From Hyphomicrobiales bacterium (lineage in GTDB: Bacteria > Pseudomonadota > Alphaproteobacteria > Rhizobiales > Rhizobiaceae): a DNA stretch of 64,000 bases. The notes under the pieces were generated by a model. The model saw only the letters and a list, made by a program, of their open reading frames with translations, was not told the DNA's origin and did not search any database. The stretch is taken from the NCBI GenBank assembly GCA_900469965.1, contig UBZP01000017.1:1-64000 (forward strand), written 5' to 3'. Made by a program: the position numbers and the translations under genes. Positions 23,317-49,889 of the stretch are shown in pieces; the first letter of the stretch is position 1, and each line of letters opens with the position of its first letter.

Positions 23317-24564
23317 ATGGCCATGTCGCCGAACATGACGACGGGTGCGGAGCCGACCGCCGACGAGGCGATCGCTTCCGATGCGCGCATCCTGTCGGCC
23401 CAGCTCAAATCCATGCGCGAGCGCTTCTTTCCTCCGACCGCGCGCAAGGTGTTGCGGAGCTTCACCTCCGGCGAGGCTGCCCGGCTGATCGGTGTTTCCG
23501 ACGGCTATCTGCGCCAGCTGTCGCTGGCCGGCGAGGGACCGCAGCCTGAAACGGGTCCGGGCGGGCGCCGTTTCTATTCCCTGACTGACATCAATGCGCT
23601 GCGCGCGCACCTGGCCGACCAGGCGCTTGCCAAGGGCAACAGGACGAAGGCGCGCGCCTATCGCAAGTGGCGCGACGGCGCCAGCGGCGAGCACCTGCAG
23701 GTCGTCGCGGTGACGAACTTCAAGGGGGGCTCGGGAAAGACGACCTCGGCGGCGCATCTGGCACAGTATCTGGCCCTTGCGGGCTATCGCGTGCTTGCCG
23801 TCGACCTCGACCCGCAAGCCTCGCTTTCGGCCCTGTTCGGCTACCAGCCGGAAATCGATCTCGAGGGCAACGACACGCTCTACGGCGCGATCCGCTATGA
23901 CGACGAGGCGCGGCCGCTGAAAGAGATCATCCGCAAGACCTATTTCGACGGGCTCGATCTCGTTCCGGGAAACCTGGAACTGCAGGAATTCGAGCATGTG
24001 ACGCCGCGGGCGCTGGCCAGCCGCCAGACGATGGCGCCGGGGCAGCCGCTGTTCTTCGCGCGCGTGCACGCAGCGCTGCGGACGGTGGAGCAGGACTACG
24101 ACGTCGTCGTGCTCGATTGCCCGCCGCAGCTCGGCTATCTCACCCTGTCGGCGCTCTGCGCCTCGACGTCGGTGCTGGTCACCGTGCATCCGCAGATGCT
24201 CGACGTCGCCTCGATGAACCAGTTCCTGTTCATGACGTCCGATCTCCTCGGCGTGGTGCGCGAGGCCGGCGGCCGCCTGAACTTCGATTTCCTGCGCTAT
24301 CTCGTCACCCGCTTCGAGCCCAACGACGGGCCGCAGGCGCAGATCGTCGGCCTGATGCGCTCGCTCTTTGCAGACCGCGTGCTGACCTCGCCGATGGTGA
24401 AGTCGACCGCCGTATCGGATGCCGGCCTGACCAAGGAGACCCTCTACGAGGTGGGACGGGAGAACTTTACCCGCGCCACCTATGACCGGGCCATGGAAAG
24501 CATGAACGCCGTCAACGCCGAAATCGAAGGCCTGATCTTGCAGGCCTGGGGCCGCGGCACATAG
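23317..24564 (+). CDS. repA: RepA, repABC-type partition ATPase (copy 1, no repB beside it)
   Basis: 415 residues from 23317 (AAGGA upstream). The N-terminal half has the RepA-specific HTH region (FTSGEAARLIGVSDGYLRQLSL) and the C-terminal half is a ParA ATPase: deviant Walker A FKGGSGKTTSAAHLAQYLA, switch I VDLDPQASLSALFGYQPE and Walker B VVVLDCPPQLGYLTLSAL. In repABC plasmids RepA partitions the replicon with RepB and represses the rep operon. Here repB is missing: 336 bases after the stop comes repC. A second RepA gene lies at 47644, and the two proteins share long blocks such as MLDVASMNQFL. Confidence 0.93.
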   Translation: MAMSPNMTTGAEPTADEAIASDARILSAQLKSMRERFFPPTARKVLRSFTSGEAARLIGVSDGYLRQLSLAGEGPQPETGPGGRRFYSLTDINALRAHLADQALAKGNRTKARAYRKWRDGASGEHLQVVAVTNFKGGSGKTTSAAHLAQYLALAGYRVLAVDLDPQASLSALFGYQPEIDLEGNDTLYGAIRYDDEARPLKEIIRKTYFDGLDLVPGNLELQEFEHVTPRALASRQTMAPGQPLFFARVHAALRTVEQDYDVVVLDCPPQLGYLTLSALCASTSVLVTVHPQMLDVASMNQFLFMTSDLLGVVREAGGRLNFDFLRYLVTRFEPNDGPQAQIVGLMRSLFADRVLTSPMVKSTAVSDAGLTKETLYEVGRENFTRATYDRAMESMNAVNAEIEGLILQAWGRGT

Positions 24565-24633
24565 CAATTGCGTCCGGTCGCAGACGACCAGCGGCCGGGC
24601 ATGATGAAGCAGAAACAGGAAAGGATCAGAGCA

Positions 24634-24680
24634 AGAAAAAAGGCCTCCAAAACGTCGCCGCTCCGGAAGCCCTCTTCAAT
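24634..24680 (-). ncRNA. Counter-transcribed RNA (inc-alpha type) in the repA-repC gap
   Basis: The 336-base gap 24565-24900 holds a minus-strand transcription unit: -35 TTGACG (24709-24714), 17-base spacer, -10 TGAATT (24686-24691), start near 24679. It ends in GGCTTCC (24665-24671 reversed), loop, GGAGGCC (24642-24648) and six Ts (24636-24641). The stem has a G-U pair on this strand but would be a C-A mismatch on the other, which indicates the minus-strand RNA is the real product. About 46 nt, it matches the small antisense RNA that normally lies between repB and repC and limits RepC synthesis. Confidence 0.8.
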
Positions 24681-24685
24681 GTAGC

Positions 24686-24900: not shown

Positions 24901-26106
24901 ATGACGGAGAGACTGGCAACGACGCCTTTCGGCGGCGGCAGGATGACTGCGCGCGTCTTTGCGATGCAGAAGCATGTCGCGGATACCCAGGCGCGCCTTG
25001 CGGCGGACGGGGGCGGCAACGAGAACGGCACCAGCGAGAAGTGGCAGCTCTTGCGCGCCCTGACGGAGGCGCGCGTGCAGTACGGGCTGTCCGATCGGAC
25101 GCTGGCCGTGCTGGAGGCGCTCCTGAGCTTTCACCCGGACCGGATCCTCGACGGGCGCGCGCCGATCGTGGTCTTTCCCTCGAATGCCGAACTGTCGGTA
25201 CGCTCCAGGGGTATGGCGCCGGCGACGCTGCGGCGGCATCTGGCGATGCTGCAGCAGGCCGGCATGATCCTGCGTCGCGACAGTCCCAACGGCAAGCGCT
25301 ACTGCCGCCGCGACGACCGCGGTGTGGTGGAGGACGCGTTCGGCTTCGATCTCGCGCCGCTGGCGCTGATGGCCGCCGACATTCACGAACGCGCGGAACG
25401 GGCCCGTGCCGAGGCGAGGCGCGTTCATGCGCTGCGTGCGGAGGTGACGCTGCATCTGCGCGACATCGCCAAGATCGTCGAAGCAGCGCTTGCCGAAGGA
25501 CGCACGGGAAGCTGGGCCGAACACCAGTTGGCCCTTGCCGGCCTCTCGGGGCGGCTGGGTCGCGCCACGCCCACGGAAGCCCTCATCGAGCGGAAGACGG
25601 CCCTGCTGACGCTGAGGCGGGTCGTGGAGGACGACTACCTAAAATCGCTCACGGACGAAGAAATGAGCGCCAATGACGATCAAACTGAGCGGCATATTCA
25701 GAATTCAAACTCAGACCATCCACTTGAATTAAAAGGCCCTGACATAAATCAGCAGGCGCGGGCGGCAAACGAGACCAAGGCGGAAGCCGGCAAGGGCGTC
25801 GCCGTCAGCCTGAAACGCGTGCTGGCCGCCTGCCCTGAAATCGGATCCTACGCCAGGGAAGGCATTTCCAGCTGGGCGGACCTGATCAAGGCTGCGGCGC
25901 TGGTCCGTTCGATGCTCGGGATTTCGCCGGATGCGTTCGAGAAAGCGCGCGCCGCAATGGGTGAAAGTGCGGCTGCGGTCGTGATCGCCGCCATGCTCGA
26001 GCGGTCCGACCAGGTCCGCTCCCCGGGCGGGTACCTGCGGGAACTGACGCGCAAGGCCGAAGCCAAGCAGTTCTCCGTCCTGCCGATGATCAAGGCGCTC
26101 GAATGA
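24901..26106 (+). CDS. repC: RepC, replication initiator
   Basis: 401 residues. The start at 24901 has AGAGGG six bases upstream; the ATG at 24895 abuts that site. The N-terminal part is the RepC DNA-binding region (TERLATTPFGGGRMTARVFAMQ, FPSNAELSVRSRGMAPATLRRHLAMLQQAGMILRRDSPNGKRYCRRD). The C-terminal domain follows a low-GC hinge (ACPEIGSYAREGISSWADLIKAAALVRSMLGISPDAF, SPGGYLRELTRKAE). RepC is the only essential initiator of repABC replicons and acts on an origin inside its own gene. This is the only repC in the window. Confidence 0.93.
   Translation: MTERLATTPFGGGRMTARVFAMQKHVADTQARLAADGGGNENGTSEKWQLLRALTEARVQYGLSDRTLAVLEALLSFHPDRILDGRAPIVVFPSNAELSVRSRGMAPATLRRHLAMLQQAGMILRRDSPNGKRYCRRDDRGVVEDAFGFDLAPLALMAADIHERAERARAEARRVHALRAEVTLHLRDIAKIVEAALAEGRTGSWAEHQLALAGLSGRLGRATPTEALIERKTALLTLRRVVEDDYLKSLTDEEMSANDDQTERHIQNSNSDHPLELKGPDINQQARAANETKAEAGKGVAVSLKRVLAACPEIGSYAREGISSWADLIKAAALVRSMLGISPDAFEKARAAMGESAAAVVIAAMLERSDQVRSPGGYLRELTRKAEAKQFSVLPMIKALE
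25636..25755. other. Candidate origin of replication inside repC
   Basis: This part of repC is strikingly AT-rich compared with the rest of the window: bases 25681-25750 are about 40% GC by count. It codes for the poorly conserved hinge (DDQTERHIQNSNSDHPLELKG). In studied repABC plasmids the origin is an AT-rich segment within repC, so this is the probable duplex-opening site; the assignment rests on position and composition. Confidence 0.6.
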
Positions 26107-26134
26107 GGGAAATCCGCTGATGCCGCGGACCGCC

Positions 26135-27304
26135 CTATCCGGCGGGTAGGACCGGCCAGGTGGTGGTGATCCGTCCGTTTTCCATGATCTGGAGCGGTCC
26201 GAACTGCTGCAGCACCGCTTCGGACTGGGTGGGGCGGAAGAAGACGAGATCGTCCGGCGCAACCGGGTGGCTCGTCGAAAACGCCATCAGTTGCTGATTG
26301 GAAGAGTCGCCCCAGATCCGGTTTCGCTTCAGACCGGGCGGATAGACGGGCCGGGCCATGAACTTGCCGCCATAGAGGAAGCAGCCGTTGCGTGGAAAGA
26401 GGCCGAGCGCCTGAAGCAGGGCGGACATCGGCCGCGGCCCCGGCAGCCGGGTCTTCAGAACCTTCAGCACGGGCGTTGCGATGAAGATCGCCGGTGCCAG
26501 CGCCCCCAGTCCGGGCCGGTCGAAATCCGTCGGCTTGACGAGGGCTGAGCCGATCGAGACTTCGTTGGCCACCATATTGTCGCTATGCGAAAAGGCCGTC
26601 TGACTGCCGCCCGTGTTGAGGATCGCCCGCTGCCCCGGGGGAAGAACGGCGACGAATTCGGAGAAGCGGGCCCGCGCCTGGAAAAGCGCGGCCTTCGGCC
26701 CGCCGAACAGGGCGGGAATGGCCGGGACATGGGCCTCGTATCCCATCACGCCCTCGCATAGCAGCAGCGGTTCCGAAGATGCGGCGCGGACGGCGCTGGC
26801 GAGATCGGCCGGCGTCTCGAACCCGCCGCGCTGCATGCCGATGTTGATCTCGAAGGCGATGCGCAAAGGCGTGCCGAGCGAACGTGCGAAGGACGCATAT
26901 TGGCCGAGGCGGACTTCGCTGTCGATCAGCCATGTCACCCGCCCGGCGAGCGCGCCGGCCTGATCGCGATCGGCATGCGCGAAGGCTTGGGTGACGGCGG
27001 CGATCGGCATGGGCTTGCCGAACAGGGCGTGCACATCGGGAAATTCCGCGAGCACCGCCAGCGTCACCGGCAGGTGGAAGCTCATGATCTTCCGTGTTCC
27101 GAGGATGCGCATCGCATGGGCGAGAAGGGGGAGCGCGGGAAGGGACTTGTCGACGAGGCGGATCGCGGGCCCGCCGCGCATCGCTTCGCGGAGGATGGAG
27201 AGGTTGGCGTTCAGCCGCTCGAGATCGATCACGAGTGCGGGCCGGTGGATGCCTGCTTCCTCGAGCGCTGCCGACATCATGCCGAAATAGGCGGTTCTCT
27301 TCAT
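26135..27304 (-). CDS. Alanine racemase-fold PLP enzyme (D-amino acid aldolase/dehydratase-like)
   Basis: 389 residues from 27304; the start overlaps the preceding stop by 4 bases. The N-terminal fold III barrel is visible: RPALVIDLERLNANLSILREAM and the likely PLP lysine in IRLVDKSLPALP (about 53). Later come FEINIGMQRGGFETP and a C-terminal part with TSHPVAPDDLVFF, resembling D-threonine aldolase and D-serine dehydratase. It is the last of three tightly coupled genes after an MFS transporter and a lactone oxidase-like enzyme. The substrate is unknown. Confidence 0.7.
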   Translation of the reverse strand: MKRTAYFGMMSAALEEAGIHRPALVIDLERLNANLSILREAMRGGPAIRLVDKSLPALPLLAHAMRILGTRKIMSFHLPVTLAVLAEFPDVHALFGKPMPIAAVTQAFAHADRDQAGALAGRVTWLIDSEVRLGQYASFARSLGTPLRIAFEINIGMQRGGFETPADLASAVRAASSEPLLLCEGVMGYEAHVPAIPALFGGPKAALFQARARFSEFVAVLPPGQRAILNTGGSQTAFSHSDNMVANEVSIGSALVKPTDFDRPGLGALAPAIFIATPVLKVLKTRLPGPRPMSALLQALGLFPRNGCFLYGGKFMARPVYPPGLKRNRIWGDSSNQQLMAFSTSHPVAPDDLVFFRPTQSEAVLQQFGPLQIMENGRITTTWPVLPAG

Positions 27305-28593
27305 GCCGAAAGACCGAACAGGCGTGCGAGATAGGGCGAAACGAAACGCTGGTCCGGGTCGAAGCTGCGGCGGACCTCCATGGCGTCCTTCCATCGCGGA
27401 TAGAGAGCGGCAAGATCTGCGGCCACGAGGTTGTGCATCTTTCCCCAGTGCGGGCGCCCGCCGTAGCGCCGGAAGATCGTCTCCGCCGCGGCCATGAAGG
27501 CGCCCGGATCCTCGGCCGCGTCGTGATGGATGGCGATCGAACAGGTCTGCCGCCGATAGAACGGGCTGAGCCAGAAATTGTCTGCCGCCACCGAGCGCAC
27601 TTCCATCGGGAAATAGACTTCGGGAAAGCGCTTCTCCGTCAGGGCGATGATCTCGGCCAGCGCCTTCGGGCCTTCTTCGAACGGCAGGTGATACTCCATC
27701 TCGTTGAACTTGCGGCGCCGGTCGCTGGCATAGACGTGCAGCCAGTCCTGGACGTAGTCTTCCTCCGGCAGGCGGGCCAGTGCGGCGCCGATCAATGCCC
27801 GCCGCAGAGGCGGGAACCAGCCGAGCCAGCGCCGCAGGTTCTTCAGCGTCGACAGCCCCTCCTCGTCCTCCTCGGCCGGGCGCGGCGTCACCGCGGCGGT
27901 GGACGGGTCGCTCGAAATCAGCAAGGCATGCCCGGAAAAGGGAATGAAGTAGAACTCGGCCGATCGGTGGCCGTTCATGAAGCTCTCGAAGCCGGACAGG
28001 ATGTCGCCGATCGGGACCACCCAGCGGCGCCGGCGCAGGCGGTAGGTCGCGACGTTCTGCAGCGTCACCTCCGTCAGCGCCCCGAAGGCGCCGAGCGTGA
28101 CACCGGTGGCCTCGATCGTCTCGCGATCGTTCTCCAGCGTATAGCGCCGCACCTCTCCGCGACCATCCACGATCTCGATCCTGCGAAGCTGGGTGTGATA
28201 GGCGCCGAGCGCGGGGCCAGAGCCGTGCGTCGCCGTGCCGAGCGCACCGCCGATCGACTGCTTGTCGATATCGCCCATGTTGGGCAACCCCTGCCCTACT
28301 CCATGAAGCTGCTTGGTCAGATCGCCGAGGCGTGTCGCCGCTCCCACCGTTGCCTGCAGTTCGATCGGGTCATGCGACACGAGCCCCTGGAAGCGGTCGA
28401 GGTCGAGAATGGTCCCCTCGGTCTCGACCAGCGGCGTGAACGAATGGCCCGCACCGGCGATCCTGATCGGACCGCGCGCCGTTCGGATCGCATCGGCAAG
28501 CTCGGCAAGACCGCGCGGTCGCAGGATCGCTGCGTTTCTGGCAACGACGCTTCCGGACCAGTTGCTCCAGGCGAGGTTTACGGTCTGGTTCAT
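27301..28593 (-). CDS. FAD-linked oxidase, aldonolactone oxidase family
   Basis: 430 residues. The N-terminal FAD domain (ILRPRGLAELADAIRTARGPIRIAGAGHSFTPL) contains GHSF, the position where FAD is attached to histidine in aldonolactone oxidases. GQGLPNMGDIDKQSIGGALGTATHGSG completes the flavin site. The C-terminal ALO domain has the HWGKMHNL motif. Family members oxidise gulono- or arabinonolactones or sugar alcohols with oxygen or a dehydrogenase partner. Its start overlaps the MFS stop and its stop overlaps the PLP-enzyme start, so the three proteins are made together. Confidence 0.8.
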   Translation of the reverse strand: MNQTVNLAWSNWSGSVVARNAAILRPRGLAELADAIRTARGPIRIAGAGHSFTPLVETEGTILDLDRFQGLVSHDPIELQATVGAATRLGDLTKQLHGVGQGLPNMGDIDKQSIGGALGTATHGSGPALGAYHTQLRRIEIVDGRGEVRRYTLENDRETIEATGVTLGAFGALTEVTLQNVATYRLRRRRWVVPIGDILSGFESFMNGHRSAEFYFIPFSGHALLISSDPSTAAVTPRPAEEDEEGLSTLKNLRRWLGWFPPLRRALIGAALARLPEEDYVQDWLHVYASDRRRKFNEMEYHLPFEEGPKALAEIIALTEKRFPEVYFPMEVRSVAADNFWLSPFYRRQTCSIAIHHDAAEDPGAFMAAAETIFRRYGGRPHWGKMHNLVAADLAALYPRWKDAMEVRRSFDPDQRFVSPYLARLFGLSA

Positions 28594-29813
28594 GCGCTGC
28601 CCTTGCTCTCGCGAACGGCGGGGGCGCGCGATACCCGTCCGCGCGCGTCGAGGATGCAGAAGGCCGCGAGCAGGACGAGCGAGGCGAGCAGGCAGCCGAT
28701 GCCGAACAGCGGCACGGCTCCGACGCCCCGCGCCGATATCAGGAGCGTCGCGCCGACCGGTCCGATCGCCGCCCCGAGAAGCTGGCCCGCGGGCACGAGC
28801 AGCGCCGTGCGCCGGCTGGGATCGGCGACGATCGTCATCCGGATCTGGTAGGGCACGACAAAGAGCCAGACATAGCCGGTGAGAAGGGCTGCAAACCAGA
28901 AAAGGGCGGCGCCCGGCACAGCGGCGAAAAGGCAGGCCGCCAGAAGGGCGCCGGCGATCGACAGGGCGATGGCGAGCCTGTAGTCGAGCCGCCTTTCCAC
29001 GAGCGTGGCGGTGAAGGCGCCCGCCACCTGCACCGCAAGCGCTACGGCCGTGATCAGTCCGACCGTCTGCGCGGTGAGCGCAGATGCCTGACCGAGCGGC
29101 TCGAGGAAGGCCCAGAGGGCGCCGATGAACAGGTAGAACGTGAAGATGACGGCGAGTGACAGCATCGCCATCGGCCCGCCGATGCCGGCGCTCACCTGGA
29201 GGGTGTCGGGGATCGCCTCGTAGCGGCGGGGCAGGAACGGCACGGCGGCGATCGAGGCGACCGTCAGCAGGGCCAGGGCCTCAAAACCGCCGGCCGAGCC
29301 GGATGCGGGGATGACGGCGAGCGCGAGAACCGCCGCCAGGATGCACTGGGCGCCGGTCTGAAGGGTCAGGAAGGTCCCGCCGAGCCGCTCGGGCCGCGTG
29401 GAGCGGGCGACCAGTTCCGTGGCGATGGCGACCAGGCCGCCCTCCGCCAGGCCTGCCAGCCCACGCAGTCCGATCACGAGGTACGGGCTGGTGGCCGTCG
29501 CGGTCAGATGACAGAGGAGCGCCAGCACAAGCAGAAGCGTCGCAGCCTTCGGGCGCAGGCGGTCGGGGGCGAGCGCCAGCGCCATCACCGCCGAGCCTGC
29601 CGCGATCGCGACCATCTCGATGGTCGCGGCCAGCGCGAGCTCGTCGAACGTCATGCGGTTGTCGGCAAAGAGTGCGCCGAGCAGGACGGGTTGAAGACCG
29701 AGAATGAGCAGGCCCACGGAACCGGTCCAGAGGGCCGCGGCGACCTGGCCGGGACGTGGATCGCCGCAGAGCCACGCATTCGCCGAAAGCCCCTCTCCTG
29801 CGCGGTCCTCCAT
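28590..29813 (-). CDS. MFS transporter
   Basis: 407 residues with about twelve hydrophobic segments, including VAAALWTGSVGLLILGLQPVLLGALF, ATLLLVLALLCHLTATATSP and MLSLAVIFTFYLFIGALWAFLEP. AGGAGG lies just upstream of 29813. It is the first gene of the operon with the FAD oxidase and PLP enzyme, probably importing their substrate or exporting a product. It sits behind a 21-bp dyad and faces the TetR gene. Confidence 0.8.
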   Translation of the reverse strand: MEDRAGEGLSANAWLCGDPRPGQVAAALWTGSVGLLILGLQPVLLGALFADNRMTFDELALAATIEMVAIAAGSAVMALALAPDRLRPKAATLLLVLALLCHLTATATSPYLVIGLRGLAGLAEGGLVAIATELVARSTRPERLGGTFLTLQTGAQCILAAVLALAVIPASGSAGGFEALALLTVASIAAVPFLPRRYEAIPDTLQVSAGIGGPMAMLSLAVIFTFYLFIGALWAFLEPLGQASALTAQTVGLITAVALAVQVAGAFTATLVERRLDYRLAIALSIAGALLAACLFAAVPGAALFWFAALLTGYVWLFVVPYQIRMTIVADPSRRTALLVPAGQLLGAAIGPVGATLLISARGVGAVPLFGIGCLLASLVLLAAFCILDARGRVSRAPAVRESKGSA

Positions 29814-29843
29814 TCAGACGGCCTCCTGCCCCCATACCGCCGA

Positions 29844-29864
29844 AATATGATAGGGTATCATATT
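29844..29864. promoter_or_regulatory. Perfect operator dyad upstream of the MFS operon
   Basis: AATATGATA (29844-29852), GGG, TATCATATT (29856-29864): 9-bp perfect arms with a 3-base spacer, 31 bases before the MFS start. A degenerate copy (TAGTAGGCTATCA, 30008-30019) lies before the tetR start. This is a typical TetR operator arrangement. A second small palindrome, TTGTCAATGACAA (29893-29905), is also in the region. Confidence 0.7.
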
Positions 29865-30105
29865 CACGGAATCGTGATGGTTCCCCCTCGACTTGTCAAT
29901 GACAAAGTGTGCGCGCGCGAACGGCCGTCAGGAGAAGTGCGGCCGATGGCGCATTTTGGGACGTTCCAGGCGGAGGCGGGAAGAGTTCATTAAGTTTGAG
30001 TTGTTTTAGTAGGCTATCATGATGATGCCTCGGTGCCTCCGCGTCCAGCGCGGCGACGCAGCTTCGTTCACGGAAGCAGCCGAGAAGAAGCGAGGGTAGG
30101 CAGGT

Positions 30106-30771
30106 ATGACGGCAGAGGCCGATGATCTCGCGCAGCGCCTGCGGCGCAAGCCGAAGCAGGAGCGCAGCCGGGAACGCGTCGAGGAAATTCTGCGCGTTGC
30201 AAAGCAATTGATCGGTGAAAAGGGCATCGACGGAATGACGATGCGCGAGGTGGCGCTTCTGACCGGCGGGCCGATCGCATCGGTCTACCAGTATTTTCCG
30301 AACAAGTCGGCGATCATCGCGATGCTGTACGAGCAGTACAGCGCGGCGACGCGCGCCGGCATCGAGGCCAGCCTCTGGAAGCTCACCGACCTTGCAGACG
30401 TGCGCGACGCCGCCGACGGCATTTTGGACGGCTACTATCTCCGTGTGGCCGGCGACCCTGCCATCCAGGACCTGCTCAACGCGATCCAGGCCGACAAGGA
30501 ACTCCAGAACATGGACATCACCGAGACGCGGCGGCAGGCGGACCTGTTCTGCCAGCTGTCGTCGCATCTTGTGGCCGAGGGCGATCGCGAGCGGTTCGGC
30601 CGGCTGGTCTTCCTGCTGTTCCAGCTCGCCGGAAGCATGGTCCGCCTGGCGATCACGCTGCCGGCGGACGAGGCGGAGAACATGCTGGTCGACTTCAAGC
30701 AGATCATCCATGGCCAGCTTGCCGGCTTCTGTCCGGCGGGCAGCCAGCGCAACGCGCCGGAAAGCGCTTGA
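30106..30771 (+). CDS. TetR-family repressor
   Basis: 221 residues. HTH: RSRERVEEILRVAKQLIGEKGIDGMTMREVALLTGGPIASVYQYFPNKSAIIAMLYEQY, the classical TetR pattern. The rest is a helical ligand domain (ETRRQADLFCQLSSHL, FLLFQLAGSMVRLAI). It is divergent from the MFS/FAD oxidase/PLP operon, and the dyad at 29844 is its likely target. Its stop codon overlaps the -35 element of the next promoter. Confidence 0.88.
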   Translation: MTAEADDLAQRLRRKPKQERSRERVEEILRVAKQLIGEKGIDGMTMREVALLTGGPIASVYQYFPNKSAIIAMLYEQYSAATRAGIEASLWKLTDLADVRDAADGILDGYYLRVAGDPAIQDLLNAIQADKELQNMDITETRRQADLFCQLSSHLVAEGDRERFGRLVFLLFQLAGSMVRLAITLPADEAENMLVDFKQIIHGQLAGFCPAGSQRNAPESA

Positions 30772-30798
30772 CCTTCCCACGTGGGATGGCTCCAGGGT
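30768..30798 (+). promoter_or_regulatory. CueR/MerR-type promoter before the copper chaperone gene
   Basis: -35 TTGACC (30768-30773) and a weak -10 CAGGGT (30793-30798) are 19 bases apart. That overlong spacer is a hallmark of MerR-family promoters. Between them is a dyad CCTTCCCACGTGGGATGG (one mismatched pair) resembling CueR boxes. No cueR gene lies in the window, so the activator must be elsewhere. Confidence 0.65.
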
Positions 30799-30824
30799 GG
30801 CCGCCTGCAACAGGGAAAGATGAG

Positions 30825-31055
30825 ATGCCGAACGAACCTGCCATTGCCATGATCGTCGAGGACATGACCTGCGGCCACTGTGTCCGCACCATAACGTCCG
30901 CCGTGGAGGGTGCCTTTCCCGGCGCCAGGGTGTCGGCGGACCTGGCCACCCATCGCGTCACGATCTCCGGGGCTTCGGACGCGCGCGCCGTTGCGGACGT
31001 GGTGGCCGCCGAAGGCTACACGCCGGTGCTCGTGGATGCGGCCGGCGCCCGATAG
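30825..31055 (+). CDS. copZ: CopZ-like heavy-metal-associated (HMA) domain protein
   Basis: 76 residues, one HMA domain: AIAMIVEDMTCGHCVRTITSAVEGAFPGARVSADLATHRVTI. The MTCGHC metal motif with its two cysteines binds Cu(I). GGGAAAGA precedes the start. It is a cytosolic copper chaperone or buffer. Usually such a gene accompanies a CopA ATPase, but here it stands alone behind a CueR-type promoter, close to other copper genes (nos and copCD). Confidence 0.85.
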   Translation: MPNEPAIAMIVEDMTCGHCVRTITSAVEGAFPGARVSADLATHRVTISGASDARAVADVVAAEGYTPVLVDAAGAR

Positions 31056-31143
31056 CGGGCCGGGGCGACGCTGACGCCTGGAAGGGCCGGCAGGGTTACG
31101 TAAGTCTGAAAAGCGTATGGCGCCGGAATGGCGCCTGCATTGC

Positions 31144-31173
31144 AAAAACCCCGGAGACCAGAGGCCTCCGGGG
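31144..31173 (-). terminator. Intrinsic terminator of the aldehyde dehydrogenase gene
   Basis: On the minus strand a GC-rich hairpin (CCCCGGAGGCC / GTCTCCGGGG, 31149-31173) is followed by TTTTT (31148-31144), 45 bases after the stop. Confidence 0.8.
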
Positions 31174-31218
31174 AAGGTGGGGCTCGCCGTGCGGACCGGC
31201 GGGTCTGCCCGGGGAGGA

Positions 31219-32727
<1,509 letters not shown>

Positions 32728-39665: not shown

Positions 39666-39668
39666 GGT

Positions 39669-41068: not shown

Positions 41069-41964
41069 TGCCCGTCCCTCCGGCTGAAATGGCTGTAGAT
41101 GTCCTCGAGGCTCGGCGGGATCACGTCGAGATCGGCGACCTCGCCCCCAAGGGCGGCGATACGCGCGAGAAGCGGCAGCTTTTCCGCCTGCGCGCAGGAA
41201 AGGCGCAGGAGACCGTCGCCGCCGGCGACCGCCTCGGGAAAGGCTGCCGTGAGCGACGCTGCGCGCCCGGGCGCCGGGCGAACCAGGAGGGCGATGGGGA
41301 GCGCCGCGCGGGCGCGCAGGTCGGCAAGCGTGCCCTCCGCCACCAGTGCCCCGCCCGACAGGATGAGGATGCGGTCGGTGCGGGCCTCCACCTCTGTCAG
41401 GACGTGGGAGGAGAGCAGGATCGCGGTTCCCTCGGCGGAAAGGCCGTCGAGCAGGTCGTAGAAGTCCCGCCGCGAAACCGGGTCGAGGCCCGAGGTCGGC
41501 TCGTCCAGCACGAGGAGGCGCGGGCGGCCGATCAGCGTCTGGGCGAGGCCGACACGCTGGCGCATGCCCTTGGAATAGGTGCCGATCCGCCGCCGCGCGG
41601 CATGGGCAAGCCCGACGCGCGCCAGAAGCTCCATCGCCTGGCGCGGATTTTCGCCGCGCAGCGCCAGATAGTGCCGAAGCTGCTCCTCCCCGGTCAGCGC
41701 CGGGTGAAAGGCGACGTTCTCCGGCAGATAGGCCAGCTGCGACCGCGCCGCCGCCGAACCGGGCGCCGCGCCGCACACCGAAACCTCGCCGCCGTCGAAG
41801 GGGATCAGCCCGAGGATGATCTTCATCATCGTCGATTTGCCCGCTCCGTTGTGGCCGAGCAAGGCCGCCCGCCGTCCCGCCTCCAGCGTCAGCGAGACCG
41901 CCTTCAGCGCCTCGACGGACTGGAAGCGCTTAGTGAGCCGAGAGATCGTCAGTGTCCGTGTCAT
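41065..41964 (-). CDS. nosF: NosF, ABC ATPase for NosZ maturation
   Basis: 299 residues from the ATG at 41964 (AAGGAAACC upstream; a TTG codon lies directly before it). Walker A LLGHNGAGKSTMM, signature YSKGMRQRVGLAQ, Walker B LLVLDEPTSGLD and the switch His in LLSSHVLTE are intact. It drives the NosDFY complex that delivers copper and possibly sulfur for the CuZ site. It starts 35 bases inside the end of nosD. Confidence 0.92.
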   Translation of the reverse strand: MTRTLTISRLTKRFQSVEALKAVSLTLEAGRRAALLGHNGAGKSTMMKIILGLIPFDGGEVSVCGAAPGSAAARSQLAYLPENVAFHPALTGEEQLRHYLALRGENPRQAMELLARVGLAHAARRRIGTYSKGMRQRVGLAQTLIGRPRLLVLDEPTSGLDPVSRRDFYDLLDGLSAEGTAILLSSHVLTEVEARTDRILILSGGALVAEGTLADLRARAALPIALLVRPAPGRAASLTAAFPEAVAGGDGLLRLSCAQAEKLPLLARIAALGGEVADLDVIPPSLEDIYSHFSRRDGQ

Positions 41965-43258
41965 CAAGGTTTCCTTCGGCCCAGCGGCCGGCGGCCTCGG
42001 CTTCGTAACCGAGGATTTCGGGCGGGACGGATATGGTGAGGGGCTGCATCAGGGGGGCGCTGTCGCGCACCCCACCGGGCAGCGTGGCGGGAAAGTCCCG
42101 CTGGCTCCAGCGCACGAGCTGCACGGCGGGCGAGCCGATCAGCAGGCTCGCCGCCGGCTGCGACCACAGGATCTGGTCCATCAGGTCGTTGGGCCGGTAG
42201 AAGCTGTCGGCGATGCCGTCGCCGTTGAGGTCGAAGGCCGGATGGTCGGACCAGAAATTGCCCCTGCCCCCGTGGCTCCATTCCATGTTGCGGGTGCCGA
42301 CATATTTCACCTGCTCGCGGTTTGCGACGAAGGCGTTGTCGGTCAGCACGTTCTTCTCCGAGCCGGCGGTGAAATGGATGCCGATGCCGCAGCCCTCGAA
42401 ACGATTGTTCCAGATGAGGTTCTTGTGGGCGTTGTAGATGAAGAGGCATTTCTTCGCGCCGCCGCGCACCAGGTTGCCGGTGACGTCGGCGTTGTTGGCG
42501 TAGTTCAGCATCAGCCCGTGCTCGCGGTCGCCGAGGCTGAGATTGTCGCGGATCTTCGTCCGTTCGGAGAACATGATGGCAAAGCCGAGGTGGTTGCCGA
42601 TCGAAAGATTGCCGGAAACCTCGGTGTTGCGGGTGTACATGAAATGCACGGCAAAGCGCAGGTCGCGCATGAGATTGCCGCGATAGACGCTGTCGGCGCT
42701 GGCGTTGGAAAAGATGCCGTCGCGGCCGTAGCGGATGACATTGCCCTCCAGCAGCGTGCCGGGGCTGTTCCAGACATAGATGCCGTTGCCGCGTTCGTTC
42801 ATGCGCGGGCTGTTCGTGCCGATGATCTCGTTGCCGGTGACGGCGGCGTTGCGTCCGCCATGCACGTCGATCCCGTGCATGTTTCCGGTGACGAGCAGCT
42901 TTTCGATGCGGGCGCGATCGGCCCCTTGCAGGATCTTCACCCCGGCGTCGAGATCCTGGTTGACGCGGCCGGAGCCGGTGACGGTGAAGCCCGTCAGGGT
43001 GACGTCCGGGGCGGATATCGTCACCACGCTGCCCCTTCCCTGCCCGTCCACCACCGCCCCGCGCGGGCCGCGGATGGTGAGCGGACGGTCGATGGTGACG
43101 GGGCCGGCATAGGCCCCGTCTGTGAGCATCAGCACGTCGCCGGGTGCTGCCCCGGCGACGGCGGCTGCGAGGCTGCCCGTACCCGGCGCGACCGTGCGCT
43201 CCGCCGCAGCGAGCGGCGAGGCGAGAAGAAGGCCGATCAGCAGGGCGAGCCGGCGCAT
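41930..43258 (-). CDS. nosD: NosD, periplasmic NosZ-assembly protein
   Basis: 442 residues with a signal peptide (LALLIGLLLASPLAAA). The body is a right-handed beta-helix of CASH/parallel repeats (GNGIYVWNSPGTLLEGNVI, TEVSGNLSIGNHLGFAIM, NADVTGNLVRGGAKKCLFIYNAHKN). NosD receives copper from NosL and delivers it to NosZ with the NosFY pump. It follows nosZ by 3 bases. Confidence 0.93.
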   Translation of the reverse strand: MRRLALLIGLLLASPLAAAERTVAPGTGSLAAAVAGAAPGDVLMLTDGAYAGPVTIDRPLTIRGPRGAVVDGQGRGSVVTISAPDVTLTGFTVTGSGRVNQDLDAGVKILQGADRARIEKLLVTGNMHGIDVHGGRNAAVTGNEIIGTNSPRMNERGNGIYVWNSPGTLLEGNVIRYGRDGIFSNASADSVYRGNLMRDLRFAVHFMYTRNTEVSGNLSIGNHLGFAIMFSERTKIRDNLSLGDREHGLMLNYANNADVTGNLVRGGAKKCLFIYNAHKNLIWNNRFEGCGIGIHFTAGSEKNVLTDNAFVANREQVKYVGTRNMEWSHGGRGNFWSDHPAFDLNGDGIADSFYRPNDLMDQILWSQPAASLLIGSPAVQLVRWSQRDFPATLPGGVRDSAPLMQPLTISVPPEILGYEAEAAGRWAEGNLDDTDTDDLSAH

Positions 43259-43261
43259 GGA

Positions 43262-45193
43262 TCAGGCTTCCTTCGGTTCCACGAACATGCGCCCGCGCAT
43301 TTCCATGTGCAGGGCATGGCAGAACCACTGGCAATAGTACCAGTAGACGCCCGGATTGGCGGCGATGAAGGTGACCGAGCTCGTCTGCTGCGGCCCGATC
43401 TCCATCGCCACGCCATGGTTGCCCAGGGTGAAGCCGTGCGTCAGGTCGTCGATCTCGTCGAGGTTGGTGACGATCACCGTGACCTCGTCGCCCTCCTTCA
43501 CCGTGAAGCTCTCCTGGCTGAAGCTCGGCGCGACCGAGGTCATGTAGACGCGCACCTTGTTGCCGTCGCGGATCACGGCATCGGTCCATTCGTCCAAGTT
43601 GACGCCGTCGGCCTCGGCCTGCTTGCGCGTCTCGGCCCACATCGGGTCCTTGCGGTCCCAGGTCGAGCGGATGTTCGGCAGGATGGACGGCGCCACGGCG
43701 ATGGCGTCATGCGGCTCGGCGAAGGTCGGGCCGTCGTGCACCAGCACCATCTTGTCGCCGGAGATGTCGATCAGCTGGTCGTTCTCCGGCTTCAGCGGGC
43801 CGACGTTCAGGAAGCGGTCCTTGGAGAACTTGCACAGGCACACCAGCCAGTCGTTGGTCGCATCCAGCGTCTCGCCCATCACCGACTTCAGGTGGCCCGG
43901 CTGGTACTGGACGTCCAGCTTGTCCTTGATCGGGTTGATCTTTTCGCCGGCATAGGCGCGGATGGCCTCCTCGATGTTCCACTTCACCACCTGGCTGTCG
44001 AGGAAGAGCGAGGTATAGGCGTTGCCGCGCCCGTCGAAGGCGGTGTGCAGCGGGCCGAGGCCCAGTTCCGGCTCGGCCACCACGGCGCTGCGCGGCTCGG
44101 CGTTTTCGTAGAACAGCGCGTCGAACTTCGTCACGTCGAGCACGGTGACGGTCGGCGAGAGCTTGCCGGCAATGCACAGGTGCTTCTTGTCCGGCGCCAT
44201 GTTGCAGCCGTGCGGGTTGTTGGCGATCGGGATGTAGCGGGTGAAGAGGGACTTGGCCTCCTTGCGACCGTCCACGACCTTGACGCCGTTGATCTCCTCG
44301 TACTGGCCGGCGGCGATCGCCTTTTCGATCTCGGCGAGGTTGAAGATGACGACGTGGTCCATTTCGGACTTGGTCATCTCCTCCAGCGTCGTGCCCATCT
44401 CGGAGTTGTAGCTGGTCGAGAACGCCCACTTGCCCTCGTAGTCGGCGTCGCAGTTGTCGAGGTTGCCGGACACCTTCACCTGCCAGGCGACTTCCCACTT
44501 GTCGGCGTCGACCGCGGTGAAGATGTTCACATAGGACGATACGTCCTTCATGTTCGAGCCGTCATTGACGAGCGGGGCTTCGTCCTCGCCGTTGCAGAAC
44601 ACGTAGTTTGAGCGCGGCCATTTCTGCGGACGCAGGCCGTGGATCCCCTTGGCGTTGGGAATTTCCAGGATGGCGTCGGTCTTCATCACGTCGCAGCGCA
44701 CCCGCGCCACGCGGGTGTTGGCCTTGTCGTTCATGAACAGGTAGCGACCGTCGTACCTGCCCTCGGTGAAGGACATGTGGACATGGTGCAGGTCGCCGTT
44801 GTCGTGGATCTTCTTGCCGTTGGCGGCAAGCTGCTTCTTCGTCTTCTCCGACATCGTCCGCTGGTGGATGCGGATCGATTCATTGGTCTGCCCCCAGCCG
44901 GTGGCCGAGCACCGGTTGAACACCGGCACGCGCATCAGCTCGCGCATCGAGGGAATGCCGAGAATGCGCATCTCGCCGGTCTGGCCGGAGGACCAGAAGC
45001 CGTAGTAGTCGTCCAGCTTGCCGGGCGCGACGGCACCGTCCGCCCCGGCGGCGGCGGCGCGGGCCGGGGTCGCCAGCCCCGCCGACCCGAGGCCGAGCGC
45101 GGCCGGCCCCATCGTGCCGGCCAGAACGGCGGTGCCTGCCGTGGCGCTGAACAGCGCGCGACGGCTCATTCCCTTGTTTTCCTTGGATTCCAT
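43262..45193 (-). CDS. nosZ: NosZ, nitrous oxide reductase (clade I, Tat-exported)
   Basis: 643 residues. A twin-arginine signal ([18 protein letters not shown], cleavage near ARA-AAAG) marks the Tat-exported clade I type. CuZ histidines are visible in [29 protein letters not shown] and EPHDA. The C-terminal cupredoxin domain has the CuA motif [12 protein letters not shown]. The enzyme reduces N2O to N2 in the periplasm, the final step of denitrification. It is second in the operon, 16 bases after nosR. Confidence 0.97.
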
Positions 45194-45209
45194 GATCGGC
45201 TCCTTGTGG

Positions 45210-47360
45210 TTAGACGGTTGGTTGGTGGATCGGGGCGCCGCCGGGGCTCGCCGCGAGCTTCGCCCGCGACTTCATCTTCTTGATCACCACGGGGCAGACG
45301 GATTCAGACTGGTAGAGCACCTGGCAGTGCAGGCAGTTGATGCACTCGTTCGGGTTGATCTCGCCGGTGCGGTGGATCGCCTGCACCGGACACTGGTTGG
45401 AGCAGGTCTGGCAGGGGTTTCCGCATTCGTGGTAGCGCTTCAGCCAGTCGAACATGCGGATGCGCGCCGGGATCGCGAGTGCCGCACCCAGCGGGCAGAG
45501 GTAGCGGCAGTAGAACCGCTCGACGAAGAGCCCGGCGACGAGGAGTGCGGCCGCATAGGCCACGAACGGCCAGGCGCGGATGAACTTCAGGATGATCGCG
45601 GTCTTGAACGGCTCGATCTCGGCCAGATGCTCCGCCTGCTCGACGCTCATTAGCGAGACGCCGAAAAGACCGAGGAAGATCATGTACTTGATCGGCCAGA
45701 GCCGCTCATGCAGGCCCCAGGGCAGCGTCCATTGCGGCACGTGCAGCTTGCGCGCGATCTGGTTGGTCAGCTCCTGCAGGGCGCCGAAGGGGCAGAGCCA
45801 GCCGCAATAGGCGCCCCGCCCCCAGAAGAGCAGCGCGGCGGCGACGGCGAACCACAGGATGAAGGTGAGCGGATCGAGCAGGAACGCCTGCCAGCTGAAG
45901 CCGGACACCAGGCTGCCGAACAGCGCCATAAGATTGACAACCGAAAGTTGTGCATTGGCGTACCAGCCGAGGAAGACCAGCGTCACCGTCAGGAAGGCCA
46001 TGCGGAAGATGAAGAAGCCCTTGGCGTTCCTGACCGCATAGGTCTGGAAGAAGAACACCCCCGTCAGCACGACCAGCATGGAACCGAGGACCGCGATCTT
46101 CAGCTTGGAGTCCCGCCAGATGCGCCTCCACAGGTCCGCCTGCGCGGTCCCCTCCCCGCGGTCGGCGACGGCGACGACGTCCTTTGCCGGCGGCGTGACG
46201 GCGCGCAGGTATTTCTGCGGCAGCTGGTAGCCGAGATCGAAGGTGTGGAAGACCTTCTCGATCGGCCCGACCTCGCGCTGCGCCAGAAGCTGGATGCGGA
46301 AGGGCCTGGTCGGATCGAAGCCGAGGCCGGCGGGAATTCGGAACAGGTCCATCTCGGTGAATTCCGGCGCACCGGCCAGGGCGACGCCGCCGAGGCGGCG
46401 ATGGTCGCGGTCGCGAAAGCGCACCGAGACATCGTCCTGGATCAGCACGATACGGTCGAAGATGCCGCCGCGCACATAGCCCGAGCCCTTGAACGAATAG
46501 AGCCCGCGCGCCATCACCGCGATGGCGTTTTCCCCCTCGCCCAGCCAGCCCTCGAGATTGGCCTCCTCGGCCGGACCCAGCAGCGCCTTGCCGACCGGGG
46601 GAACGGAGACGAGCGCCGCCTGCATGTCGATGAAGGTGGTTTGCGGCGGTTCGGCGAGCGCGCGTTCCCGGGCGCGCTCGTCGGGATGCTCGGCGAAGGC
46701 GGCATTGACCTGGGCCACGTCCAGCGACAGCCGGCGCAGGGTGCCATCGCCCTCGGCTTCGGCCCAGTCCGCCGGCGGGGCGGCGGCGGGATCGATCTCG
46801 AAACGGGGGCCGGCATTGGCCGTTTCCGGGGCCAGGCCGCCGAGGCCGAGGGCGCGCGCCACCTTCAGGCCGGAACGGACGATCGAATCGTCGATCACCA
46901 TCACCGTCACGGTCGCGCCGGAGATGATGTCCACCTCATGCGCGGTGCCGCCGGATTTCGCCTCGGCGACGAGGTCGAGCCCGGCATAGCCGGCAACCAG
47001 CGCCTTCACCTTCGCCTCGGGAATTCCGATGAGCACGATCGGCTCGGAATGCTTCACCAGCCTGACGCCGACGATCTTCGCATCCGTGCCGATCGCCACC
47101 AGCGTGTGGATCGGCTTGCCCGAGTAGCCGGTCGTTCCGACGAAATCGGAGGTGACGAACGCCCAGGCCACCGTCTGGCCGCCCTTCAGCACCGGCGCCA
47201 CCGCGAGATCGTCGCGCACGGGGCCGAAACCGTCGGCGCCCGGCACGAGCTCCGAGGCCACCGTGTCCGGCAGATACTCCTGCAAGACCGTCGCTGCGCG
47301 GGCGGAGACCGCAAGGCACAGACTGGCGCAAAGCAGAACGACAAGACGGAAGAGTTTCAT
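45210..47360 (-). CDS. nosR: NosR, flavin and iron-sulfur membrane protein
   Basis: 716 residues from 47360. A signal peptide is followed by a periplasmic FMN-binding domain with the flavinylation motif DIISGATVT (Thr about 150). Then come several membrane spans with [10 protein letters not shown] and [11 protein letters not shown], and a C-terminal pair of 4Fe-4S motifs ([13 protein letters not shown] and [18 protein letters not shown]). NosR is needed for nosZ expression and for electron delivery to NosZ from the quinol pool. It is first in the operon, behind an FNR-type box. Confidence 0.95.
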
Positions 47361-47418
47361 TCCAGGGCATTCCAGCAAATTGTTGCCGGAGCATTGGAAT
47401 GTTCACGCCATCAGGTCT

Positions 47419-47432
47419 TTGCGCTGAATCAA
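47419..47432 (-). promoter_or_regulatory. FNR/FixK/NnrR-type box upstream of nosR
   Basis: On the minus strand TTGATTCAGCGCAA fits TTG-N8-CAA with a full TTGAT left half. Its centre is about 65 bases upstream of the nosR start, which would put transcription roughly 24 bases before the gene if the site works from -41.5. The regulator is not in the window. Confidence 0.65.
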
Positions 47433-47643
47433 CCGGCTTATGAATACACGGCGATGCCGGGGCCGGTGCGTAATTCGGACGCAGTGCCACGCGCTTAATT
47501 GTGCGTCCTGGCGCGTTGCATTCGCATGACTGTGCATCTTAACCCTTCGTTAACGATAAACCGTTTGACCGGCCGGGCAAATCAGTTGAAAAACAGTCGC
47601 GACGGAATTTTTCCGACTTTCTCCAATTAACCGTCGGGCTCTC

Positions 47644-48861
47644 ATGGAAAACGCACTCAGACGACCCCAGGACCTCCTGTCCTCCGCCGACCGGATCATG
47701 CGCCATTCGCAGTTGCTGTCGGCGCAACTGCAAAATCTCCGGCAGCAGATGTACCCGCCCGAGGCGATGAAATCGCTGCGGACGTTCTCGTCGAAGGATG
47801 CGGCCGCCCTTCTCGGCGTCGCCGAATCGACGCTGCGCCAGATGTCGCTGGATGGTGAGGCGGTGATCCCCGACCGGCAGGACAACGGCCGGCGCGTCTA
47901 CACGCTGCCGCAGGTTAACGAGATACGCGCCTACCTGGCCAACCGGCGCCCGACCGAGGCGCTGGAGTTTCTGCCGCGCCGGCGCGCCGGCGACAAGCTG
48001 CAGGTGCTCGCGATCGCCAACTTCAAGGGCGGCTCGGCGAAGACGACGACGACCGTGCACCTGGCCCACTATCTCGCCCTGCAGGGACTGCGCGTCCTTG
48101 CGATCGACCTCGATCCGCAGGCATCGCTCTCCACCATGTTCGGCTACCAGCCGGAATTCGACGTGGACGCGAACCAGACGCTCTATGCGGCGATCCGCTA
48201 CGACGAGAACGAGCGGGTCCCCCTCTCCGCAGTCATTCGGCGCACCTATTTCGACGGCGTCGACATCGTGCCCGGCAACCTCGAACTGATGGAATACGAG
48301 CACGAGACGCCGCAGGCGATCGCCAAGGGCCTGTCGCGCGGGGACGGGATGTTCTTCCGCCGGCTGAAAACCGTTCTCGGTGAGGTCGAGGACCGGTACG
48401 ACGTCGTGCTGATCGACGCGCCGCCGCAGCTCGGCTATCTCACCCTCGGGGCGCTCTATGCGGCGACGGGGCTCTTGATCACCGTCCACCCGGCCATGCT
48501 CGACGTCGCCTCGATGAACCAGTTCCTGGCGATGACGAGCGACCTGCTCGGCGTGATCGAGGACGCCGGGGGCACGCTGGAGCACGACTTCATCCGCTAT
48601 GTCCTGACCCGGCACAATCCGCACGACGTGCCGCAGGTGAATGTCGTGGCGCTGCTGCGTTCGCTGTTCGGCGAGGACGTGCTCGCCGCGTCGGTCGTCG
48701 ACACGACCGCCATCGCCAGCGCGGGCCTTGAGAAGAAGAGCCTCTACGAGATGACGCGAGGCAGCGTCGGCCGTGATACGCTCAACCGCGCGCTCGAATC
48801 GGTCGACGCCGTGAACGCCGAGATCTTCCGCCACATCAAGACAGTCTGGGGACGCAAATGA
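47644..48861 (+). CDS. repA: RepA, repABC-type partition ATPase (copy 2)
   Basis: 405 residues. N-terminal region FSSKDAAALLGVAESTLRQMSLDGEAV, then the ATPase: FKGGSAKTTTTVHLAHYLA (Gly to Ala in the usual KGGSGKT, a known RepA variant), IDLDPQASLSTMFGYQPEF and VVLIDAPPQLGYLTLGAL. The stop overlaps the repB start by 4 bases. It is divergent from nosR, and 283 bases lie between, with a GTTAAC-centred dyad (CGTTAACG near 47549) that may be the autoregulatory site. Confidence 0.93.
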   Translation: MENALRRPQDLLSSADRIMRHSQLLSAQLQNLRQQMYPPEAMKSLRTFSSKDAAALLGVAESTLRQMSLDGEAVIPDRQDNGRRVYTLPQVNEIRAYLANRRPTEALEFLPRRRAGDKLQVLAIANFKGGSAKTTTTVHLAHYLALQGLRVLAIDLDPQASLSTMFGYQPEFDVDANQTLYAAIRYDENERVPLSAVIRRTYFDGVDIVPGNLELMEYEHETPQAIAKGLSRGDGMFFRRLKTVLGEVEDRYDVVLIDAPPQLGYLTLGALYAATGLLITVHPAMLDVASMNQFLAMTSDLLGVIEDAGGTLEHDFIRYVLTRHNPHDVPQVNVVALLRSLFGEDVLAASVVDTTAIASAGLEKKSLYEMTRGSVGRDTLNRALESVDAVNAEIFRHIKTVWGRK

Positions 48862-49889
48862 ACAGCGCCAGTGATCGATCCAAGCGAATGAAGGCCATGT
48901 TCGGCGGCATCAACGCCGACGAGCTGGCCGCGGCGGTCGCCCCCTCGCCGCTGTCCCAGGCCGGCCGGCGGGTATCCTCCGGTGCCGTGCGCTCGATGCA
49001 GGATTCCTTCTCCGCCATCGAGGACGAGAACGCCCGCCTGCGCGAGCAGATCGCGGGCTCCGAGGCCGTCGTCGAACTCGGCCCCGAGCAGGTGGTCGCC
49101 TCCTTCGTGCGCGACCGCATGGACGGCCAGGTCGATCCGGATCTCGCGGAGCTGGTGCGCAGCATCGGCGAGCACGGCCAGCAGGTGCCGATCCTCGTGC
49201 GCCCGCACCCGGACGGGAACGGGCTGTTCCAGATCGCCTACGGCCATCGCCGGTGGCAGGCGGCGCGCGAACTGGGCCGCCCGGTCAAGGCGATCGTGCG
49301 GGAGCTGTCCGACGACGCCCTCGTCATCGCGCAGGGCAAGGAGAACAGCGAGCGGAAGGACCTGTCCTTCATCGAGCAGGCGCTTTTCGCGCAGGAGCTG
49401 AAGGAGCGCGGCTTCGACAGGCAGACGATTGCCGCCGCACTCGGGCGCAGCGAAGACAAGGGCCTGGCCTATATCTCGATCCTGACCTCGCTCGCTGGCG
49501 CGTTGCCGCAGGAGATCGTCCGCAAGATCGGCCCGGCGCCGAAGACCGGCCGGCCGAAATGGGAGAAGCTGGCGGCGCATTTTTCGGACCGCAAGCTCCC
49601 GGCCGCCCGCTCCTCGGCGGCGAACGGGCTGATGTCGTCCGACCGATGGCTGCGCGCCGACAGCGACGGTCGTTTCGCCCTGCTGCTCGCGCTGCTGGAG
49701 GCCAAGGAAAAGCCGGCGCCGGCGAAGAGCGTCATCAAGGATACGGCCGGCCAGGATGCGGTTTCGATCGAGCGGGCAGGGACGGTGACGCGCTTTTCCG
49801 TCGACGAGCGGCAGGTTCCGGGCCTTGCGGAGTGGCTGGCGCGGCAGCTGCCGGAGCTGTTGCAGCGCTTCGAGCAGTCGCGAGGCTGA
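48858..49889 (+). CDS. repB: RepB, ParB-like partition protein
   Basis: 343 residues. The N-terminus (SKRMKAMFGGINADELAAAV) is the RepA-contact region. The ParB nuclease-like core includes VDPDLAELVRSIGEHGQQVPILVRPHPDGNGLFQIAYGHRRWQAARELGRPVKAIV and ENSERKDLSFIEQALFAQELKERGFDRQTIAAALGRSEDKGLAYIS (HTH). RepB binds parS and loads the partition complex. In standard operons repC follows; here a hairpin and 374 bases lead into a metabolic gene. Confidence 0.94.
   Translation: MNSASDRSKRMKAMFGGINADELAAAVAPSPLSQAGRRVSSGAVRSMQDSFSAIEDENARLREQIAGSEAVVELGPEQVVASFVRDRMDGQVDPDLAELVRSIGEHGQQVPILVRPHPDGNGLFQIAYGHRRWQAARELGRPVKAIVRELSDDALVIAQGKENSERKDLSFIEQALFAQELKERGFDRQTIAAALGRSEDKGLAYISILTSLAGALPQEIVRKIGPAPKTGRPKWEKLAAHFSDRKLPAARSSAANGLMSSDRWLRADSDGRFALLLALLEAKEKPAPAKSVIKDTAGQDAVSIERAGTVTRFSVDERQVPGLAEWLARQLPELLQRFEQSRG

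Follow-up and report, generated by a model that had tools for sequence, protein, structure and literature searches.

A repABC system broken into two distant halves was characterized in a 64,000-nucleotide stretch of DNA (hereafter, the window), which comprises positions 1–64,000 of the 526-kb contig UBZP01000017.1 (C6) in the 5.34-Mb, 51-contig draft genome GCA_900469965.1 of a Hyphomicrobiales bacterium. The first half consists of repA1, an antisense RNA (ctRNA) and repC, and the second one of repA2 and repB; repC and repB are 22.8 kb apart on the same strand. With a probability of about 0.8, we regard this as a chimeric split repABC system, whose replication half and partition half come from two repABC lineages. 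RepABC is usually described as a single operon co-regulating replication and partition; here, in a large replicon of at least two genera, the halves persist at separate places, apparently derived from different lineages and accompanied by two RepAs. Such a replicon is a natural dissection of the two jobs of RepA (repressor and partition ATPase). It also gives a rare chance to ask whether the origin or the centromere organizes the polarity of segregation and of the FtsK-orienting motif GGGNAGGG (KOPS), since origin and centromere are usually found side by side; the sequence data favour the centromere.

The gene content agrees with the first-pass annotation of the window, which had described a first locus with repA, an antisense RNA and repC without repB, and a second one with repA and repB followed by a hairpin, without repC. 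All four Rep proteins match the curated RepA, RepC and RepB models with scores far over the cut-off (Table 1). The 336 bp between repA1 and repC contain no repB; they hold a match to ctRNA_p42d (RF00489, E-value = 1.4e-8), whose 43.3 bits fall short of the family's gathering score, 50. A hairpin does follow repB, and no ctRNA family was detected around repAB (46500–51500) at E ≤ 1. Across the whole window, no Rfam family reached its gathering score. The roughly 21.5 kb of catabolic and nos genes reported between co-directional rep loci was likewise confirmed, as the gap from repC to repA2 is 21,538 bp long, contains catabolic genes, nosRZDFY/apbE and nosL (the last assigned by position), and all rep genes are on the plus strand.

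Conservation of the split and its two lineages

The four genes were found as two pairs on one contig and one strand, repAC first, in all seven genomes of the genus (the Mycoplana group, window genome included; Mycoplana azooxidifex, M. dimorpha, Rhizobium rhizolycopersici, R. subbaraonis and Rhizobium sp. GN54 are among them). Plasmid pEMPC1 of Sinorhizobium sp. BG8, a separate genus in our genome set, presents the identical split, order and orientation on a 1.14-Mb sequence recorded as complete and circular. Together these are the eight split replicons discussed below, and in all of them the working set is divided between the two loci, as had been proposed for the window. Among 394 genomes of the family, RepB was matched at E ≤ 1e-80 in 17, namely the eight split ones and nine others with repC directly downstream. 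Spacer length ranges from 10.8 to 62.6 kb and the content varies; out of 17 window spacer genes tested, a TetR gene alone is in the spacer in 8/8. The outer neighbours are constant in 8/8, with an aminotransferase upstream and a class II fructose-bisphosphate aldolase downstream. The nos cluster lies within the spacer in the window genome only, is found beyond repAB and inverted in M. azooxidifex, and did not turn up in the regions read for the six remaining split replicons. Together with the ApbE gene, it occupies 38724–47378 of the window.

The split arrangement is therefore conserved, and it results neither from misassembly nor from duplication. An error of assembly might be suspected in a 51-contig draft; its probability is negligible, given that seven independent assemblies and pEMPC1, a plasmid deposited as complete and circular, all have the same order. 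A further complete repABC operon on the same replicon, which the first-pass annotation had named together with misassembly as grounds for rejection, is absent from the BG8 genome (G062, two contigs), where exactly one RepC (PF03428) and one RepB (PF07506) match occur, those of the split genes. The genome-wide rep search that it had suggested, carried out on the window genome (G000), led to one further repABC on another contig (C13), and it is unlikely that this is joined to C6. The C13 operon, at 2448–5965, has the ordinary layout and belongs to a third lineage.

Regarding ancestry, the nearest relatives of RepA1 and RepC lie in intact repABC operons of Shinella, Neorhizobium, Rhizobium and Nitratireductor (eight examined; RepA 70–83%, RepC 46–64% identity), with repB between the two genes in 8/8, although the reading frames of repB and repC are interrupted in one of these operons, that of Rhizobium sp. 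CC-CFT758. RepA2 and RepB are closest to a second set of intact operons (12 examined; RepA 76–83%, RepB 46–53% identity), whose own RepC is merely 24–27% identical to the window RepC. In quick trees to which the third repABC lineage was added, the second set is joined by RepA2 (SH-aLRT 100) and RepB (99) and the first set by RepA1 (92), and RepC falls together with the first set plus the third lineage (100). These data indicate that RepA1/RepC come from a Shinella-like repABC lineage and RepA2/RepB from another.

The first-pass annotation had offered either a duplication or a plasmid fusion with complementary losses as the origin of the split. Descent from one duplicated repABC operon with later complementary loss would agree with two RepAs of one family in equal orientation, and yet it is very improbable: RepA1 and RepA2 share about 56% identity, each half has separate intact relatives, and a single clade of all RepA1 and RepA2 was rejected under the model used (log-likelihood difference 323, p-AU 2.7e-72, approximately unbiased (AU) test). 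Fusion or capture with complementary loss, on the other hand, is supported by the sequence comparisons. Some points weaken the two-lineage reading, namely that the tree program flags long branches, mainly of the third lineage, and that AU tests for RepB (p 0.48) and RepC (p 0.345) were not significant, these being badly posed with three groups in unrooted trees. Moreover, even within intact repABC operons the individual genes are known to differ in their evolutionary history (PMC2783167), so lineage mixing alone is not unusual.

The most likely course of events is a fusion of two large plasmids belonging to different repABC lineages, or the capture of one plasmid's partition genes by the other, with one module losing repB and its parS and the other losing repC and its ctRNA. 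The segment repA1-ctRNA-repC would form the replication half, with RepC initiating probably at an A+T-rich origin in its own gene and its dose limited by RepA1 autorepression and the ctRNA. Genes repA2-repB with a nearby centromere would form the partition half, in which RepA2 would partner RepB, and the FtsK-orienting KOPS would diverge from that half. Since they would now be 11–63 kb apart, origin and centromere become distinguishable.

KOPS polarity, origin and centromere

FtsK is oriented by the motif GGGNAGGG, which on large replicons points from ori towards dif (PMC13342612), while the related GGGCAGGG has been used for placing origins in R. leguminosarum (PMC1557990). In 8/8 split replicons KOPS polarity follows repAB, not repC: the best single switch of GGGNAGGG overlaps repAB or lies up to 3.5 kb beyond it. 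Pooled over the replicons, plus-strand motifs account for 9/100 in the spacer, 82/101 beyond repAB and 24/101 upstream of repAC. Polarity of spacer and downstream side differs in each of the eight (Fisher p from 2e-5 to 6e-3); spacer and upstream side presented no difference in seven of the eight (G003 being without an upstream motif), with p = 0.033 in G002. On pEMPC1 (2,500 bases of which read N), the strand flips between 274,791 and 278,133, beside repAB, with a gain of 32.0 versus 17.5 when the flip is placed at repC and 14.0 for the best of 100 permutations. Here GGGNAGGG ranks first among 7,581 comparable words, the next one reaching 18.6. In three intact Shinella replicons the flip is at repABC, where it is expected; a second, opposite switch was seen in one of them about 4–8 kb upstream, along with motifs clustered locally at 5-bp distances.

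The GGGNAGGG bias is equal whichever strand a gene is on, and intergenic DNA shows it too. A simple mutational strand bias was rejected as its source, given that GC skew at four-fold sites has no flip at either locus (crude gene calls, as for the preceding comparison) and that no turning point is seen when GC skew is cumulated along pEMPC1. As the nos cluster is found beyond repAB and inverted in M. azooxidifex, a motif block of fixed orientation within it would point away from repAB in both genomes. A search of pEMPC1 with a dif consensus gave best matches carrying 6 mismatches.

The presence of an active origin in repC is inferred by analogy. RepC acts in cis only and the origin is located in an A+T-rich segment of repC in the repABC plasmids p42d and pTiR10 (PMC3155836, PMC6090056). 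A similar A+T core was detected in 8/8 split repC genes (53–62% AT per 120 bp versus 32–41% in the gene), and a comparable peak in 4/4 intact relatives examined. Because this core is kept in the split repC, and because RepC is cis-acting with its origin inside repC elsewhere, origin and centromere are probably 11–63 kb apart.

Concerning the centromere, no exact canonical parS (GTTNNCNGCNGNNAAC) was found around either locus in the eight regions read, nor a canonical cluster far downstream of repC. The window has one GTTNNCNGCNGNNAAC match, 14 kb upstream and at chance level, and the entire pEMPC1 has one, non-palindromic, at 574047. Shinella relatives have a canonical parS upstream of repA; it was not found in three of the eight repAC relatives in the stretch read, and in 9/9 intact repAB relatives there was no exact match within 1.5 kb of repB. 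The sole conserved candidate is a putative 14-bp element, 117–248 bp past repB in 8/8, which compared with GTTNCAGCTGNAAC is exact in four replicons and has one mismatch in two and two mismatches in two. It is not enriched genome-wide, with 8–18 matches per strand and genome (one mismatch) versus 30–52 for the reversed control, and no perfect 14-bp palindrome is shared by more than three of the eight genomes. In five of the eight genomes, TTACAGCTGTAA is present as a single copy on the rep contig (G062:C2:283253, G002:C6:121022, G003:C4:223614, G004:C4:209166 and G006:C59:198094). As a centromere element it was set aside and kept as a lead only, its wider-pattern totals being not clearly above those of the reversed control.

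Replicons with parS far downstream of repC were described by Czarnecki et al. (PMC9040568) and served as a comparison. In pNCHU2750a of Neorhizobium (249,964 bases read; repABC at 1–3,799, parS at 91,064 and 92,006), a divergent KOPS switch lies between 90,899 and 91,477 and none at repABC; plus-strand motifs are 2/15 within the arc versus 23/27 outside, and 0/300 permutations attained the gain. The same plasmid has a convergent switch at 15.5–21.7 kb, near a degenerate parS at 18,331 and about 15 kb from repC, so that a dif-like pole would sit near the origin. Among the matches listed for the NCHU2750 parS region (25 of 298 records), other plasmids gave no more than short, partial matches. 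In pAMI4 of Paracoccus (100 kb read, no permutation run; 3parS 12.6–13.1 kb beyond repC), the switch is between −13,267 and −11,661, all nine motifs between 3parS and repC are on one strand, and plus-strand motifs are 1/7 to the left and 20/22 to the right. A KOPS pole away from repC is thus a feature of the split replicons and of both these plasmids. In Rhizobium sp. CC-CFT758, 19/19 motifs hold one strand across repABC, so there is no pole there, and the 200 kb read did not contain its distal parS pair. The record of this strain (NZ_CP104990.1, 195–199 kb) has repB and repC each broken into two frames and absent from the gene table, in which other gaps suggest sequencing errors. Finally, Neorhizobium petrolearium has 11 motifs, 10 of them on one strand; its repABC shows no switch, and a parS is lacking from the part of the sequence that was read.

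The main rival explanation puts the active origin at repAB, where RepC supplied by repAC would act in trans near repB and the KOPS pole would mark the origin. It could draw on the usual course of KOPS from ori to dif (PMC13342612), on the pole at repAB in 8/8 and on an AT-rich stretch (50–53%) at 50.1–50.3 kb of the window. We nevertheless consider it unlikely, on account of the cis-only action of RepC and its origin within repC in p42d and pTiR10 (PMC3155836, PMC6090056), the A+T core kept in 8/8 split repC genes, and the poles of pNCHU2750a and pAMI4, which are likewise at parS and not at repC.

The polarity suggests instead a segregation axis anchored at the centromere rather than at the origin. 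More broadly, we put forward, at somewhat less than even odds, that KOPS polarity and the FtsK axis are set by the centromere (ParB/parS) and that centromere and origin have been repeatedly separated in large repABC replicons. Three routes of separation would be involved: displacement of parS in pAMI4, displacement of parS in the Allorhizobium vitis chromosome 2 type, and take-over of a foreign repAB module in the split replicons. In all three, the centromere (repAB in the split replicons) is about 11–88 kb downstream of repC, along repC transcription. Because pAMI4 and A. ampelinum (A. vitis) chromosome 2 are reported to replicate unidirectionally (PMC13342612), the same can be predicted for the split replicon, with a fork moving from repC to repAB, which, if true, would explain the fixed order and orientation. 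The cited portion of that paper discusses KOPS inversion at dif and not a pole at parS.

Several observations weigh against anchoring the axis at the centromere. The 2-log-unit support of the switch is narrow in six replicons and extends to about 29 kb beyond repAB in G002 and G004, while the reversed GGGANGGG (plus strand 20/70 in the spacer, 44/73 beyond) and GGGGNAGG (15/56 and 42/67) follow the same trend, more weakly. The eight replicons are related and form about four groups, and KOPS polarity alone does not discriminate against an origin near repAB. Likewise, there is no canonical parS, four of the eight replicons have a degenerate version of the candidate, and the intact repAB relatives have no clear match to it.

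Roles of the two RepA proteins

The first-pass annotation had called one RepA a spare, a label which is not apt. The ratio of nonsynonymous to synonymous substitution (dN/dS) was 0.021–0.082 for RepA1, 0.016–0.087 for RepA2 and 0.054–0.193 for RepB (seven pairs each), and 0.095–0.166 for RepC (computed in five of the seven pairs). RepA1 is under strong purifying selection, at the level of RepA2 and stronger than RepB or RepC, and inverted repeats are retained upstream of both repA genes over the eight replicons.

The question had also been raised of which RepA partners RepB and which represses repC. RepA2 is most likely the partner of RepB and the partition ATPase, because the two genes overlap and share a lineage. 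In published work, RepA binds its own operators only and represses, more strongly with RepB (PMC4492784). Given this specificity, the conserved upstream repeats and the selection on RepA1, we infer that RepA1 is most likely a dedicated repressor of the repA1-repC operon. A difficulty is that RepB of Rhizobium leguminosarum strengthens repression by RepA (PMC4492784), and RepA1 is without a cognate RepB. We also weighed a part for RepA1 in partition, either with RepB working with both RepAs or with RepB co-repressing the repA1 operon in trans. The enhancement of RepA repression by RepB elsewhere and the strong constraint on RepA1 speak for it, whereas the RepAs of the same study did not bind the operators of other plasmids (PMC4492784) and the RepB of the split replicons belongs to the other lineage; overall, it seems possible and rather doubtful.

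Related systems and features of the locus

Compared with the repABC operon of R. etli p42d, pTiR10 and Shinella, the split replicon has the same three protein families, a ctRNA before repC, operator-like repeats and the A+T core; it differs in not being one operon, in its two RepAs of different lineages and in having no canonical parS near either locus. A rep set without repB also exists on pRL7 of R. leguminosarum 3841 (PMC1557990), where it accompanies complete repABC operons as a third version; in the split replicon such a set makes up one half of the sole system. A fusion of two repABC replicons is likewise seen in pMM259 of Martelella mediterranea (PMC5613091), but both modules of that plasmid are functional, while those of the split replicon would each have lost the complementary part, and two complete modules are not present. 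The pAMI4 3parS and A. vitis chromosome 2 type (PMC9040568) also has a centromere far downstream of repC; its operon is intact with parS elsewhere, in contrast to a whole partition module set apart and belonging to another lineage. In the searches made of the open-licence literature, we found no report of a repABC system split in this way, nor of KOPS diverging from parS.

Table 1. Features of the split repABC locus in the window.
Feature	Coordinates	Strand	Evidence and remarks
repA1 promoter and operator-like block	23097..23191	+	TTGACG, inverted repeat CTAACGGAAA / CCGTAACC, CCTGTTA; putative operator
repA1, ParA-type ATPase, 415 aa, solitary RepA before repC	23317..24564	+	NCBIfam TIGR03453, 1.9e-192
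ctRNA, predicted, antisense to repC leader	24631..24675	-	RF00489; conserved upstream block reaches 24728
repC, replication initiator, 401 aa	24901..26106	+	NF040974, 2.4e-123; PF03428; longest open reading frame from 24793
A+T-rich core within repC, probable oriV	25636..25755		57% AT vs 34% in whole gene; origin function presumed from p42d and pTi papers
Variable spacer	26107..47643		21.5 kb here; catabolic and nos genes
repA2 promoter and operator-like block	47563..47639	+	GTTTGACC, GCGACGGAA ... CCGTCG inverted repeat; kept 8/8
repA2, 405 aa	47644..48861	+	TIGR03453, 1.4e-179; ATGA overlap with repB
repB, ParB-type, 343 aa	48858..49889	+	TIGR03454, 1.7e-96
GC-rich hairpin 3' of repB	49900..49924	+	Folding; no ctRNA match there
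Candidate parS, 14 bp, GTTTCAGCTGTAAC	50003..50016		Known repABC parS half sites, two bases closer; candidate only
GGGNAGGG polarity divergence point	50089..51323		Best switch; 2-log-unit support 46150–51603

The start of repA1 is backed by a conserved start region in an alignment of eight relatives, and its upstream block is kept, with some changes, across the eight split replicons. The block upstream of repA2 is common to nine intact relatives, with one arm altered in two. The interval separating repB from the aldolase gene contains a pair of AATCGATTTG repeats spaced by 20 bp, at 50137–50166 of the window; the pair is present in 7/7 Mycoplana-group replicons and not within 2.5 kb of repB in BG8. 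The 97-nt block that holds the ctRNA is present with few changes in 8/8 split replicons, with an identical predicted hairpin in all of them. Inside the ctRNA promoter block, GANTC (CcrM) sites were noted at 24695 and 24721 of the window; in Agrobacterium chromosome 2, control of the antisense promoter has been linked to methylation (PMC11514494).

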